A stretch of DNA of 41,999 nt from Sphaerochaetaceae bacterium (GTDB lineage: Bacteria; Spirochaetota; Spirochaetia; Sphaerochaetales; Sphaerochaetaceae), in contig JAILRW010000087.1 in the NCBI GenBank assembly GCA_024698005.1, positions 1-41,999 on the forward strand, written 5' to 3'. This document shows positions 1 to 40,667 of the stretch, in pieces; within the stretch, counting starts at the first letter, position 1, and each line of letters opens with the position of its first letter. The notes beneath the pieces are model-generated. The model did no database searches, had not been told where the DNA came from, and saw only the letters and a program-made list of their open reading frames with translations. The position numbers and the translations under genes are program-made.

Positions 1-1216
1 TGCGCATATAGGATCTTTCCATTTTCATATAGTCAGATGCTCCATACAGGGCAGAGATAAGGAAAGGAACGTAGGTAACAATACTTAGTAGAAGGTGCTC
101 ATTATTCGAGAGGTCGACGATAAAGAGTAGCAGGCCTCTTATCATTATGAAAAAGGTAGATAATGCTATTGTAATATCCTGAAATAGATGGCTCTGTTCT
201 GAGTCTCTAGACAGTATGGCAACGATAGAAATAATCATTGCACTCGTAACAGAACTGAAGATTGTCAGATCGGCAATGAGGGATGAGGTGTATGCCTCTT
301 CTGTAAGGGCGATACAGAACATTATAAAAAGTATGATAGGAATAATACTGAGGAGTGAAATCAGCTGATTTTTCATATTTGAATGGTGACCTGTTGCCAG
401 ATGAAACAAGAGAATTGCAAATGGAAAAAGCACGTAGGAGAACATAAGGATCAGCGAAACAACAAGTTGATTCTGCAAGAATAAGCTGATTACAGGGTTA
501 TCCATGATCGAGATCAACATCATAAGCAATGATAACAATGCAAAACAGGATAGGATTCTCTTGTATCTGTTGTCCTTTACAAAGATGAAGACCAGAACAA
601 TTCCTGTTATTGTGATTGAATAGAAGCTGAAGTTCATGTAGATATCGAAGAAGTCATTGAGCTGAAGATTTCTGATCTCTGTAAAACTTCCAATTCTGAC
701 AGGATGTATCTTTGTTCCATTCAAGGCCAGTGCGCTTCCAAAATGATATTCGACTGCAATACGGCTACCATTGAGTGGCTGATCGAAGAAGCCTAAAAAG
801 TCGTTCTCGCAACCGAGCAGGAATGCTGGGTAGTTTCGCTGTTTTGGATATCTCGAAATCTCTTTTCCATCCACAAGGATTCTTATGGAGGAGAAGTTGC
901 TTTTTATCAGATAGCAGTTGAAGCTCTTGTCAACATGATCTGAAAGGGTAGTTTCAATCCTAATATTCTGGCCTGTTCTCGCCTTGACTCTATAAGGCAG
1001 TGATACATTTTTTTCAATTAACTGATCTTCTAGATAGATATCCCAGGTCAAAGAGTCCGTTCTGAAGATCGGACTGTTGAACGAATAGATATCCATTTCT
1101 GAATGAATGAAGAGAATATAGATAGAGAGCGAAAAGAAGAGAAAAAGAACAAACACCAGCAAAAATCTTTGCAAGAGTTCTGGTGCAATTTTCCATCTTT
1201 GTATTCTTCTATCCAT
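1..1216 (-). CDS. 7TM membrane sensor, 3' end beyond the left edge
   Basis: The frame from ATG at 1216 stays open to base 1, giving at least 405 residues. A first membrane helix lies at about residues 17-39. An extracytoplasmic domain follows at about 40-190. Seven hydrophobic segments then occupy about 194-392, and the last residues in the window turn charged. This order matches the 7TMR-DISM receptor family, in which an outer ligand-binding domain, seven helices and a cytoplasmic output domain (GGDEF or histidine kinase) follow each other. The output domain would be encoded left of the window, so signalling type and ligand are unknown. There is no Shine-Dalgarno sequence; a TTGAAA/TACATT promoter ends 10 bases before the ATG, so the mRNA may be nearly leaderless. 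The gene is divergent from apbE. The membrane topology is clear; the family name is inference. Confidence 0.72.
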   Translation of the reverse strand, partial: MDRRIQRWKIAPELLQRFLLVFVLFLFFSLSIYILFIHSEMDIYSFNSPIFRTDSLTWDIYLEDQLIEKNVSLPYRVKARTGQNIRIETTLSDHVDKSFNCYLIKSNFSSIRILVDGKEISRYPKQRNYPAFLLGCENDFLGFFDQPLNGSRIAVEYHFGSALALNGTKIHPVRIGSFTEIRNLQLNDFFDIYMNFSFYSITITGIVLVFIFVKDNRYKRILSCFALLSLLMMLISIMDNPVISLFLQNQLVVSLILMFSYVLFPFAILLFHLATGHHSNMKNQLISLLSIIPIILFIMFCIALTEEAYTSSLIADLTIFSSVTSAMIISIVAILSRDSEQSHLFQDITIALSTFFIMIRGLLLFIVDLSNNEHLLLSIVTYVPFLISALYGASDYMKMERSYMR

Positions 1217-36023: not shown

Positions 36024-36920
36024 TTAGTTATTGATAATTCTTACTTTTGCACCATCAGAAAGGAGTGTCTGGCCTCTTGTGACAAGTTTGTCACCAGCTT
36101 TTAGACCTTTTGTGATCTCAGCATTAGAACCCTCTCTGATACCAATTTCTACTTCAGTCTTGACTGCCTGGTCTCCACTGATAATGAAAACATAGGAACT
36201 ATCGTTTGTGACTGTTACAGCAGAATATGGGATAACAACAACATCGTCCTTTTCTTCTGTAATTACGTTAAGGCGAGCATACATACCTGCGATTACTCTA
36301 TCATCATCCTTATCAAGCTTTGCCTTGATGCTTCTTGATCTTGTGGTTGTGTCGAGAGTAGGGCTTGTATATGTAATGGTTGCACCAAACACTTCTCCTG
36401 GGAATGCATCGAATGTAACGATTGCTTTGTTTCCCTTCTTGACTGTATTTACGTACTTCTCGATTACATTGAAAGAAATCTCAAGGTCATCCAGTGTCTG
36501 TACTACTGCAATAGGACTTGCCTGACTTACTGTACTACCGTAGGAAACATTGACCTTGGTCACTGTTCCATCAAGAGTGGATTTGACAGGGGAGAAGTTA
36601 TACTTCTGACCTGCTCTGGATGGGTCGACAGTTGCAATTACCTGATCTTTTGTTACTTCAGTACCTTCCTCTACAAGGATGCTGGCAATCTTGCCTGCAG
36701 CGTCTGGAAGAATTGTTACTGAATCCTTTGCTGTGACTGTGCCACCAAACTTGTGATACTGGGTGATAGTACCTGCTTCAACTGTTGAAACAGATACAGG
36801 AGTGGTAATCACTGCATCCTCTTTGACAGTCACAGTCTTCTGGGACTGTTCCTTGGAGCAGGAAGTGAATGTGAGAGCAACAACGATTGCTGCAATGATG
36901 ATTACATTTTTTCTATTCAT
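36024..36920 (-). CDS. RND membrane-fusion lipoprotein
   Basis: The periplasmic adaptor linking pump and TolC, 298 residues, with a lipoprotein signal ending FTSC. The lipoyl/barrel-sandwich motif is split around residues 65-125 (AGKIASILVEEGTEVTKDQVIATV, then LDGTVTKVNVSYGSTVSQASPI). The beta-barrel and membrane-proximal domains follow (GEVFGATITYTSP, IPYSAVTVTNDSSYVFII, LKAGDKLVTRGQTLLSDG). There is almost no alpha-helical hairpin, as in short adaptors. It lies between tolC and the pump and has AAAGGAA before its start. Confidence 0.92.
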   Translation of the reverse strand: MNRKNVIIIAAIVVALTFTSCSKEQSQKTVTVKEDAVITTPVSVSTVEAGTITQYHKFGGTVTAKDSVTILPDAAGKIASILVEEGTEVTKDQVIATVDPSRAGQKYNFSPVKSTLDGTVTKVNVSYGSTVSQASPIAVVQTLDDLEISFNVIEKYVNTVKKGNKAIVTFDAFPGEVFGATITYTSPTLDTTTRSRSIKAKLDKDDDRVIAGMYARLNVITEEKDDVVVIPYSAVTVTNDSSYVFIISGDQAVKTEVEIGIREGSNAEITKGLKAGDKLVTRGQTLLSDGAKVRIINN

Positions 36921-36932
36921 ATTGTAATTCCT

Positions 36933-38222
36933 TTATCGGATATTCTGCTGAGTTGCATACTCAAGATCGATGAGTGCAGATAGGTAGTCGAACTGACTGG
37001 AAAGTCTTCCCAGCTTAGCCTGTTCTAGAGCATATTCTGAATCCTTCAATGTAAGGTAATCGGTTGTACCATTGTTGTAGGACTCTTCTGTCATTGCATA
37101 GCTTTTCTCTGCTAGCTGAACAGTTCTATCAAAGTTGGAAATCTGCTCCTTTGTGGTCTTGATCCTATCAAGCAATGAAAGGATTTCAATCTTTGCTCCC
37201 TCTTCTGCCATTCTATATTGGACATTAAGATTTTTCTCTGTCTCATTGAGCTTCTTGATATTCTGCTGAACTGAAGACTGAGGGAAAAGGTTTGTCAGAT
37301 TGTAGGCAACAGTAAGGGTAACCTTTCCTGATGCATCAATATAGTTCTTTGATTTTGTCCAGTTATCACCATCAATGTTGATATATGGACTATGGGAAGC
37401 AGAAAGATTGAAAGATGGTAGGAATGCCTGTTCTCTTAATGCTCTTCTGTTAAGGTTGATAAGCTTTGCAGAATTGGTGATACTGCTGAGATCATATCTC
37501 ATTCCGATGTTATCGAGCATCTTATCTTCCTCGATATCTACAATCTTCAGATCAACAGGGTCTGTGAGATTGATCTCCTCATTGATGTCTAGGCCAAGGA
37601 GGAATGCGAAACTTCTTTTGTTAGCAGCAAGAGATAGTTCTACTTCATCAACTTCAGGCTTTGCATTCTCATATGTTACCTCAGTGTTAAGTACATAGAT
37701 TTCTGGAACAAAGCCATTTTCATAGTCAATTCTTGCCTGATCCATTCTATCTTTCTTAATCTGAAGAGAATTCTTCTGGATATTAAGGGACTCCTCGAGA
37801 AGAACGATTGCATAGTAAAGCTTTTCAACATCAACCTTAAGTTCTGCCTTTGCCTGCTCATAGGTAAGGAGACCATTGAGATAGCTCTGCTTTGTTGCCT
37901 TGATGGATGTGATCATTGCTGGCGAGAAGCTAAAGCTGAAGCTGAAATTGAAATTCAGAAAAGGATCGTTTTCTGGATATGATGGGCTGTACCTATTGTT
38001 CCTTCCTAGAGTGCCTGTTGCATTTATAGAAGGAAGCAAAGTACCCCAAGAATCCTTGCTTTGTCTTTTTAGTGAAGCGAGCTCAAGCTTTGCACTTTCC
38101 ATCTGTAGGCTTGAGTTAAGTGCCAGATCCACTGCCTCATCAACACTGATATCCCTTGCTGGAAGGGATGTGATAATTAGAGCAATAAGGATCAAGAGTG
38201 ACACGATCTTGTTTGCTTTCAT
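36933..38222 (-). CDS. TolC-type outer-membrane channel
   Basis: A 429-residue protein with a signal peptide (LLILIALIITSLPA) and two OEP repeats, each with long coiled-coil helices: SVDEAVDLALNSSLQMESAKLELASLKRQ in the first, and LDRIKTTKEQISNFDRTVQLAEKSYAMTEESYNNGTTDYLTLKDSEYALEQAKL in shorter pieces in the second. The YNNGTTDYL motif is diagnostic. It starts behind AAGGAGA and overlaps the stop of the regulator gene by 4 bases, so regulator and pump are one operon. Confidence 0.92.
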   Translation of the reverse strand: MKANKIVSLLILIALIITSLPARDISVDEAVDLALNSSLQMESAKLELASLKRQSKDSWGTLLPSINATGTLGRNNRYSPSYPENDPFLNFNFSFSFSFSPAMITSIKATKQSYLNGLLTYEQAKAELKVDVEKLYYAIVLLEESLNIQKNSLQIKKDRMDQARIDYENGFVPEIYVLNTEVTYENAKPEVDEVELSLAANKRSFAFLLGLDINEEINLTDPVDLKIVDIEEDKMLDNIGMRYDLSSITNSAKLINLNRRALREQAFLPSFNLSASHSPYINIDGDNWTKSKNYIDASGKVTLTVAYNLTNLFPQSSVQQNIKKLNETEKNLNVQYRMAEEGAKIEILSLLDRIKTTKEQISNFDRTVQLAEKSYAMTEESYNNGTTDYLTLKDSEYALEQAKLGRLSSQFDYLSALIDLEYATQQNIR

Positions 38223-39367
38223 ATATTCTCCTTGTTATCGGTATATATTCCGTACCTTATATATTCATAGATAGAGAAGATGTTGTTCTCCCTGTCTTTC
38301 ATAGATTGTGTTCTTGCTGTCATGCTTTGTACAACAGCAAGTAGAAAGCACCAGTATTTGAGATGCTCAATATTTGAATCATGCTTGAGATAGATATCCT
38401 TGATAGGGATACTGTCTATCATCCTGTAAAAAAAGTCCGTATCTTTGTTTTTCCTAAGTGAGTAGTAGTTGTGATCGAGGCTAAGCAAGATTATGAACCA
38501 GGTAAGATCAGGGGAAAGAGATACGTAGTTAATGATAAAGGAAAACATTGAAATGAGTTTTTCGTTGTCCTTCTCATATCGGTCCATGTTCCTTCTAAGT
38601 GGCTCTATCAGATTCTTGAACTCTTTGCTTGCTGTATATTCAATCATCTCTTCCTTGGTTGTGAATTTTGAATATAACGTACTTTCTGCCTGGCCCAATT
38701 CTTGAGCTATGTTCTTTATCGTGATGGAAGAAATACCATTCCTTACAATGATTGAACTTAGCGCACTTAGATATTTGTCTTCCTTGATATCACTCTGCTC
38801 AGGAATGCAAGAAATAAAGATCTCATGAACTCTCTTCCTATCAATATCTGGTAGATCCAGGATTCCATTATCTAGACAGGTGATTATATGTTGCACCAAA
38901 TTATCGATATCTGCTTCTTTGACGTCTCTTCTGTTCTTATATAGTTCTTCAACATGAGAGCTTATAAGAGTGGATAGAAAAAGATAGGCAACTGTATCCT
39001 CTTTATAGCCTTTGTTGATGATGATCTGAGATAGTTTCACACGCAAGAATGAACTCTTCATGACATGCATGAACATCAAACGCATATGTGAATAATTCTT
39101 GATGGAATATGATGTGAAGAATTTCAGTATTGGCCCAATGTCTTCTGGGGTCTGTTCGGCAACTTGGAAAAATTCTGAAATCTCTTCATTCATTATTCTT
39201 TCAATTTCATCATCAAGATCCTTTTTGTTCTTGAAATGTCTGTAAATTGCAGCTTTTGAAATGCCAATATTTGCAACAATATCTGACAGACTTGGATTGT
39301 CCATAGGATGCTCAGATATCAGCTTGATGGCAGATTCGATGATTTCTTGTCTTGTGTTTCTTTTCAT
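38219..39367 (-). CDS. Double-headed TetR-family regulator of the efflux operon
   Basis: A 382-residue protein, about twice the normal TetR length. A TetR_N helix-turn-helix lies at residues 26-50 (LSDIVANIGISKAAIYRHF, NKKDL). A second complete one lies at about 213-242 (ITIKNIAQELGQAESTLYSKF, then TTKEEM). Each is followed by helical ligand-domain-like sequence. Start ATG 39367 has no Shine-Dalgarno sequence; upstream in-frame ATG 39424 lies in the promoter. The promoter TTGACA/TATATT is immediately upstream of the palindrome 39373-39394, so autorepression is likely. It is the first gene of the tolC-fusion protein-pump-PII operon. The tandem form would act as a pseudo-dimer in one chain. Confidence 0.87.
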   Translation of the reverse strand: MKRNTRQEIIESAIKLISEHPMDNPSLSDIVANIGISKAAIYRHFKNKKDLDDEIERIMNEEISEFFQVAEQTPEDIGPILKFFTSYSIKNYSHMRLMFMHVMKSSFLRVKLSQIIINKGYKEDTVAYLFLSTLISSHVEELYKNRRDVKEADIDNLVQHIITCLDNGILDLPDIDRKRVHEIFISCIPEQSDIKEDKYLSALSSIIVRNGISSITIKNIAQELGQAESTLYSKFTTKEEMIEYTASKEFKNLIEPLRRNMDRYEKDNEKLISMFSFIINYVSLSPDLTWFIILLSLDHNYYSLRKNKDTDFFYRMIDSIPIKDIYLKHDSNIEHLKYWCFLLAVVQSMTARTQSMKDRENNIFSIYEYIRYGIYTDNKENI

Positions 39368-39372
39368 GATTT

Positions 39373-39394
39373 TGTAACCGAATTTTCGGTAACA
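39373..39394. promoter_or_regulatory. Palindromic operator 1 (regulator/efflux promoter)
   Basis: A 22-bp near-palindrome with halves TGTAACCGAA and TTCGGTAACA around a central TT, 5 bases upstream of the regulator start and directly downstream of its -10 box. A repressor bound here would block transcription start. Confidence 0.75.
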
Positions 39395-39424
39395 AATATA
39401 TAAATGTAATAGTACTGATGTCAA
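39395..39424 (-). promoter_or_regulatory. Promoter of the efflux operon
   Basis: Minus strand TTGACA (39424-39419), 18-base spacer, TATATT (39400-39395); TATATA with a 16-base spacer is the alternative. It lies between operators 1 and 2. Confidence 0.7.
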
Positions 39425-39452: not shown

Positions 39453-39474
39453 TGGAAACGAAAATTCGTTAACA
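39453..39474. promoter_or_regulatory. Palindromic operator 2
   Basis: Read on the minus strand, it matches operator 1 at 17 of 22 positions; both share halves of the form TGTTAnCGAA and TTCGnTTnCA. It lies 80 bp from operator 1, centre to centre, and upstream of the divergent gene's promoter. The rest of 39425-39527 is AT-rich without a gene. Confidence 0.65.
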
Positions 39475-39527: not shown

Positions 39528-39556
39528 TTGTCGTTTGACTCGAAGATTGTTATAGT
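39528..39556 (+). promoter_or_regulatory. Leaderless-type promoter of the divergent membrane-protein gene
   Basis: TTGTCG (39528-39533), 17-base spacer, TATAGT (39551-39556), then exactly 7 bases to ATG 39564. No Shine-Dalgarno sequence is present. Confidence 0.55.
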
Positions 39557-39563
39557 TAAAGTC

Positions 39564-40667
39564 ATGGAGATGAATGGTAATAGAAACGATTATGCATTCA
39601 AGAAAGCAATAGAGTTGGCTCAGGATGTTGACATCGAGCCAATAAATTACCCAGAGAATTCCAGCTTTGATGAAAAGCAGGAAGGGGAAGAGATACTGCT
39701 TTTGAAGGAGATTGCCAGCAACGAGGATATGCCTGAAGATGCCAGGAAGTCTGCAGCTTCAGCACTTATGTTCAGTCTGTCACCTCTTGAAAAATTAAAA
39801 GATAAGTTACCTATAAAAAATAGAAAAGCTAAGAAGAATACTATCGTTTCCAAGGTCTTTTCCAAGGCGATTAACAAGATAAAGAATGATCCTGAAAAGA
39901 CGATGCAGATAGTAGATAATCTCCCCCCAGGGCTCAAGAAGTTTGGTATGAAGACCTTTGGTATAGTTGGTGGTGCTGTTGTTGGTGCGAAGATGGGGGC
40001 CATGGCAGGTAGCTTTGCTGGGGACTATCTGGGAGAAAATCAACTATCTGAAGTCTACAAGAATCTGAAAAAGATGAATGAAGAACTGGTCGAGAAGGAA
40101 AAGCAGCTCAGGGAAACACTCATACAGACTGCAAAGAATTATCTTTCTTCCCAGATCAGCAAGTTCATCAAGATTTCATTTTCAAACAAATATAGAAGAA
40201 GTCTTGAAATCCTGCTTCTCTATCTTTTCTCGATAATGTTCTCTGTTTCTCCAATATTTGGAAAGAGGATAAGCTCCTATATAGCAGCTCTGTTGATGGC
40301 AGCTTCTATTGCTCTCTTTTTGATAGGAGTAATCAGAACAACAAGATCTCTGTTTCCATATGTAAGGAGTATCTATAAGGAAAAGTCTGTTGTAAACGGG
40401 GTACTCGTTGAGTTGAAGAAGCTGAATGAAAGCTTTGCAAAGGGTGAGAAGTTGATTCAGAGCATGAATATCACTTTGACAGATCGGGAACTGATGCCAC
40501 TTGTAAAGGAAGTACTGAGACTATTTAAAAAGCAGATAATCATCTATATCGTTGGCTTTATCATGATCACCATGGGATTCTTCCTGATCAAGCATGGTGT
40601 AATCCTTCAGACAACAGAGCTATCTGCACTCCAGATAATTCTCTATCCATTCTTTGCATTGAAGTAA
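39564..40667 (+). CDS. Membrane protein with glycine-zipper and coiled coil, unknown function
   Basis: A 367-residue protein. The N-terminal 110 residues are soluble and basic. A glycine-zipper-like stretch (GIVGGAVVGAKMGAMAGSF) lies at about residues 133-151. It is followed by a coiled coil (SEVYKNLKKMNEELVEKEKQL). Two membrane helices follow at about 213-260, then a second helical region, and a C-terminal membrane helix (IIIYIVGFIMITMGFFLI). I know no family. Start ATG 39564 is 7 bases after a TATAGT box; TTG 39528 upstream would overlap the -35 box. The gene is divergent from the efflux regulator and shares its control region with operator 2. Its stop abuts the convergent ABC-F stop with no gap. 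Confidence 0.75.
   Translation: MEMNGNRNDYAFKKAIELAQDVDIEPINYPENSSFDEKQEGEEILLLKEIASNEDMPEDARKSAASALMFSLSPLEKLKDKLPIKNRKAKKNTIVSKVFSKAINKIKNDPEKTMQIVDNLPPGLKKFGMKTFGIVGGAVVGAKMGAMAGSFAGDYLGENQLSEVYKNLKKMNEELVEKEKQLRETLIQTAKNYLSSQISKFIKISFSNKYRRSLEILLLYLFSIMFSVSPIFGKRISSYIAALLMAASIALFLIGVIRTTRSLFPYVRSIYKEKSVVNGVLVELKKLNESFAKGEKLIQSMNITLTDRELMPLVKEVLRLFKKQIIIYIVGFIMITMGFFLIKHGVILQTTELSALQIILYPFFALK

Follow-up and report, generated by a model that had tools for sequence, protein, structure and literature searches.

A double-TetR regulator at the head of a TolC–adaptor–RND operon in Sphaerochaetaceae and its predicted near-palindromic operator

Introduction

Mce3R (Rv1963c) of Mycobacterium tuberculosis combines two TetR units, dissimilar to each other, in a single polypeptide of approximately 400 residues. 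Experiments have shown that both heads of a single chain bind the operator, the protein being a single-chain pseudo-dimer (PMC11667970; structure PDB 9b7y), and a single ligand-binding domain has been ascribed to it. Mce3R is autoregulated, has two nonpalindromic upstream sites of 25 bp that lie 53 bp apart, and controls a regulon of lipid transport and oxidative stress (PMC11667970). Its authors regard the double-TetR kind as infrequent in bacterial genomes, and from the TetR–DNA structures that they cite a spacing of 32–38 Å between the heads would be expected (PMC11667970).

TetR repressors adjoining RND efflux operons are represented by AcrR, MtrR and TtgR, which are single-unit proteins acting as homodimers. 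For a spirochaete efflux system, the BesABC genes of Borrelia burgdorferi, encoding RND, adaptor and TolC proteins, are co-transcribed (PMC2279261) and are set beside the present locus by description; a text search of PMC2279261 found no TetR-type regulator of BesABC. Here we describe a regulator with two TetR heads that is encoded at the start of an RND operon in a Sphaerochaetaceae bacterium. The stretch analysed, referred to as the window, comprises positions 1 to 41,999 of contig JAILRW010000087.1.

Results

The regulator, of 382 residues, is encoded by an open reading frame on the minus strand, whereas the plus strand of this region is rich in stops. As start codon we prefer the ATG at 39367 over the TTG at 39424 given by the mechanical call, because close relatives begin at the same MKRNT and because the predicted promoter and operator fall between the two starts. 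The features of the locus are compiled in Table 1.

Table 1. Features of the regulator gene, its upstream region and the efflux operon, with positions in the window or residues of the protein.
Feature	Position	Strand	Basis
Double-TetR regulator gene (382 aa), heading the operon	38219..39367	-	ORF, two TetR_N matches, relatives
First TetR_N head	39215..39343	-	50.8 bits, E 2.8e-13
First head HTH helices, recognition helix SKAAIYRHF	residues 27-34, 38-44		AlphaFold2
Second TetR_N head	38639..38755	-	32.2 bits, E 1.9e-7
Second head HTH helices, recognition helix AESTLYSKF	residues 217-224, 228-234		AlphaFold2
TolC-like outer membrane channel	36933..38222	-	TIGR01845 and TIGR01844, both below cut-off
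RND periplasmic adaptor subunit	36024..36920	-	TIGR01730 RND_mfp, 184.9 bits, exceeding the cut-off
RND efflux permease, 1058 aa	32833..36009	-	NF033617 and related RND permease models, full length, below curated cut-offs
Predicted operator O1, TTTGTTACCGAA-AA-TTCGGTTACAAA	39371..39396 (20-bp core 39374-39393)	-	inverted repeat, conservation
Predicted sigma-70 promoter (TTGACA-18-TATATT), adjoining O1 on its upstream side	39395..39424	-	11/12 consensus positions, consensus match only
Weaker operator-like site O2, GGAAACGAAAATTCGTTAAC on +	39454..39473	.	pattern, 3 mismatches; putative function

A Pfam search matched TetR_N (PF00440, curated cut-off 24 bits) twice to the protein, with 75.5 bits in total and the best stretch at residues 9–51. 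In a whole-genome scan both heads separately exceeded the cut-off, the second being located at approximately residues 205–243, and TetR_N was present in all 48 aligned relatives. The AlphaFold2 model has helices after the HTH in both halves, and TetR chains of the PDB match each half, as is typical of the TetR family. The sequence-only reading had placed two TetR HTH motifs in one chain, at about residues 26–50 and 213–242, and had proposed a domain search of both halves and a structure prediction as checks. Both bear it out, since each half has a TetR_N match over the cut-off and the predicted helices, including those of the second HTH, lie close to these positions.

By profile–profile comparison the N- and C-terminal halves could be aligned over 181 columns (98.8%, E 6e-17), which indicates that each is a full TetR unit consisting of HTH and helical domain. 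No BLASTP similarity was found between the two halves, and they are thus dissimilar units, not the result of a recent duplication. These two full yet dissimilar units agree with the fusion of two TetR units that had been suggested, and they are what characterizes the Double-TFR kind to which Mce3R belongs. That a sequencing or assembly error fused two adjacent genes is scarcely conceivable. Nothing in the window points to it, and a single long frame with both heads is kept across many genomes, a conservation that already refutes it; the one locus in its favour is L131, with a relative whose reading frame is cut in two by a stop, through either decay or a sequencing error.

AlphaFold2 modelled the whole chain with a pLDDT of 87.6 and a pTM of 0.84 (48 aligned sequences; one chain, DNA-free), with both halves confidently packed together. 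Among the PDB chains compared, Mce3R (9b7y_A) was the sole whole-length match (Z 16.7, rmsd 4.9, 331 residues). Single TetR chains ranked next, with Z values of approximately 10–11 (best 10.9) and about 170 aligned residues. Given the confident packing and the agreement with the Mce3R monomer along the entire chain, a single-chain pseudo-dimer with packed units is a well-founded prediction for the fold of this regulator. Sequence identity to Mce3R in the structural alignment is 12%, and by profile the match is confined to the first head region of Mce3R. An intramolecular pseudo-dimer had also been proposed from the sequence; it receives indirect support from the predicted packing, from the Mce3R match and from the unequal half-sites of related operators described below.

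The start of the TolC-like gene overlaps the regulator stop by 4 bases, and the TolC-like, adaptor and permease genes follow each other with gaps of approximately a dozen bases. Among 52 related loci fetched with flanks, all 49 with downstream sequence continue on the same strand with a TolC relative, followed in nearly all of them by the adaptor and then the RND gene, as far as the contig reaches. A role in efflux control, as assumed earlier, is thereby strongly supported at the sequence level, because this operon follows the regulator gene in all sampled relatives for which downstream sequence is available. The two ligand pockets that had also been considered may or may not exist, a single ligand-binding domain being ascribed to Mce3R. 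The first head resembles AcrR and MtrR, with scores of 57.9 bits for the AcrR equivalog model (NF007949, cut-off 271) and 60.3 bits for that of MtrR (NF051852, cut-off 280), both far below the respective cut-offs. At 39528–40667 on the plus strand, the window contains a divergent gene whose predicted product is a membrane protein without NCBIfam match; locus L161 has a relative at the same place, and O2 is located between this divergent gene and the regulator. Locus L175 shows RND and adaptor matches on both strands, suggesting two adjoining RND operons.

Identity of the regulator to close relatives is 54–61% within the genus and 19–25% in other genera of the family. Searches for relatives covered one phylum. 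Among 393 genomes sampled from this phylum, profile searches detected double-TetR relatives in 45. For f3 and f8, two further families of the class, the numbers were 123 of 274 genomes and 147 of 200 genomes (49 of 57 genera), respectively. When named genomes were scanned with the protein alone, matches were only HTH-deep. FlaA occurs in 44 of the 60 class members and in 0 of 14 control genomes, which makes the class most probably spirochaetal; it is absent from the family of the window (four genomes sampled).

The O1 inverted repeat has one mismatched pair and is positioned just past the −10 box, over the predicted transcription start. A corresponding 20-base motif, GTTAmCGAnnnnTCGkTAAC, preceded the gene in 158 of the 159 unique relatives when up to two mismatches over the 14 fixed positions were allowed, a level reached by 0.09% of shuffles. 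This predicted operator is kept although the aligned proteins are down to 14% identical to that of the window. At loci with single-TetR regulators it was not found, the best candidate having four mismatches. A search with the DNA pattern gave perfect matches in 10 of 297 genomes, and seven of these ten precede a double-TetR operon. The pattern matches in loci L173, L174 and L176, which show no double-TetR relative, probably arose by chance within coding sequence and were discarded.

O2 is situated 80 bp upstream of O1 (centre to centre). Two matches to the O1/O2 pattern occurred in 0 of 100 shuffles, and locus L161 has a comparable second site 68 bp from the first. At least two operator copies are present in 28 of 159 double-TetR loci, most commonly with a spacing of 20 bp (15 cases). 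Such repeated copies 20 bp apart suggest cooperative binding by neighbouring chains. In loci L165 and L166 three copies, 22–23 bp apart, are arranged in a row upstream of the regulator, and one of them sits between the −35 and −10 boxes.

Because O1 directly follows the −10 box and covers the predicted start, the regulator is probably an autorepressor of its own pump operon. With its gene inside the pump operon and the predicted operator at the promoter, it has the sequence features of a local RND-operon repressor. Some TetR-family proteins are activators, and the regulator might accordingly turn the pump on or, as a global regulator, act on many sites. We consider this very improbable, as the operator occupies the position of a repressor and the genome contains elsewhere no place with one mismatch or less to the O1 core.

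The two half-sites of the predicted operator are alike in some relatives and different in others. At position 5, most operators of family f3 (65 of 73) have two halves of the GTTACCGA type. In family f8, one half of the GTTAACGA type faces one of the GTTACCGA type in 52 of 70 operators, compared with 35 expected if the halves were independent; none of 20,000 shuffles reached this value. Relative to the gene, the unequal operator of f8 is found either way round. On the protein tree, a quick one with open forks, its orientation changed at least seven times, or five times when well-supported branches alone are counted. In one f8 clade (genus g36), near-sister loci even carry 20-mers that are exact reverse complements, centre included (GTTAACGACCGTTCGGTAAC and GTTACCGAACGGTCGTTAAC). 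A tree-aware test of half-site pairs agrees in direction, with a median p of 0.125 from too few independent pairs. A simple residue-to-base rule for C or A at half-site position 5 was tried and fails across clades.

Occupation of each site by one chain with two different heads would account for unequal halves that are kept in both orientations, and these halves suggest that a single two-headed chain binds each predicted operator. Alternatively, the N-terminal heads of two chains, or two pseudo-dimers on opposite DNA faces in the manner of QacR-type repressors, could bind the palindrome by two-fold symmetry, the second heads serving only to bridge the chains or to hold neighbouring sites. The halves of O1 differ at one position only (GTTACCGA versus GTAACCGA), a difference shared by loci L161 and L162, and a symmetric pair of chains would likewise give the same or nearly the same half-sites seen in the window and in most of f3. 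The near-perfect palindrome would suit such a pair, and so would the recognition helices: K38 and A40 of the first are invariant across the 48 relatives, while the second has E228 in the window protein instead of the K of most relatives, and this K228 has been lost in the window's family with the palindrome and both half-sites nonetheless kept. The repeated sites of 28 of 159 loci, often at a spacing of 20 bp, would fit two chains per operator as well. However, two-fold symmetry gives no reason for the unequal halves of f8 in both orientations, and in the closest structure over the whole chain, that of Mce3R, a single chain employs both of its heads (PMC11667970). Occupation by two chains thus seems unlikely to us, though it is a stronger competitor than activation or global control. 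From the model and the comparative data we infer instead one chain per operator and one head per half-site.

Taken together, we propose, with a probability of roughly 0.74, that the protein is a self-regulating repressor, a pseudo-dimer resembling Mce3R that places one head on each half of the predicted 20-bp operator and is released by a ligand. Its two TetR units would pack together within one chain as in Mce3R, and the non-identical heads would each contact one half of the operator over the transcription start, repressing the TolC–adaptor–RND operon that the regulator itself heads. Binding of a compound in the ligand domain would move the heads out of register and free the operator, so that regulator and pump would be switched on together. 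Repression, and induction by a pump substrate, would be expected by analogy with TetR repressors beside pumps.

Discussion

Double TetR is a known kind of regulator, established by Mce3R, with which the regulator described here shares the two dissimilar units in one chain, autoregulation (in our case predicted) and two upstream sites (likewise predicted). The operator, nonpalindromic in Mce3R (PMC11667970), comes close to a palindrome in the window, as it does in most relatives; nonpalindromy belongs to Mce3R itself and may not define the kind. The presumed targets also differ, an RND operon here in contrast to the lipid transport and oxidative stress regulon of Mce3R. What is new, judged from genome comparison, is a widespread lineage with a constant link to an RND operon and a predicted operator that is near-palindromic and in places directional. 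In the open-access literature searched, no earlier report of such a double-TetR lineage was found.

With about even odds, the relatives form a class-wide single-chain lineage in which a palindromic operator turns directional as the fused heads diverge, giving a series from homodimer-like to heterodimer-like recognition.

Mce3R was the only double-TetR protein with a solved structure found in the present comparison. Our data point to the double-TetR protein as the common regulator, across entire bacterial families, of one RND operon, and approximately 160 natural examples allow its predicted operator to be deduced. These loci provide a ready-made set of putative single-chain repressors with matching predicted operators, by which the sharing of work between two fused heads on DNA becomes directly testable.
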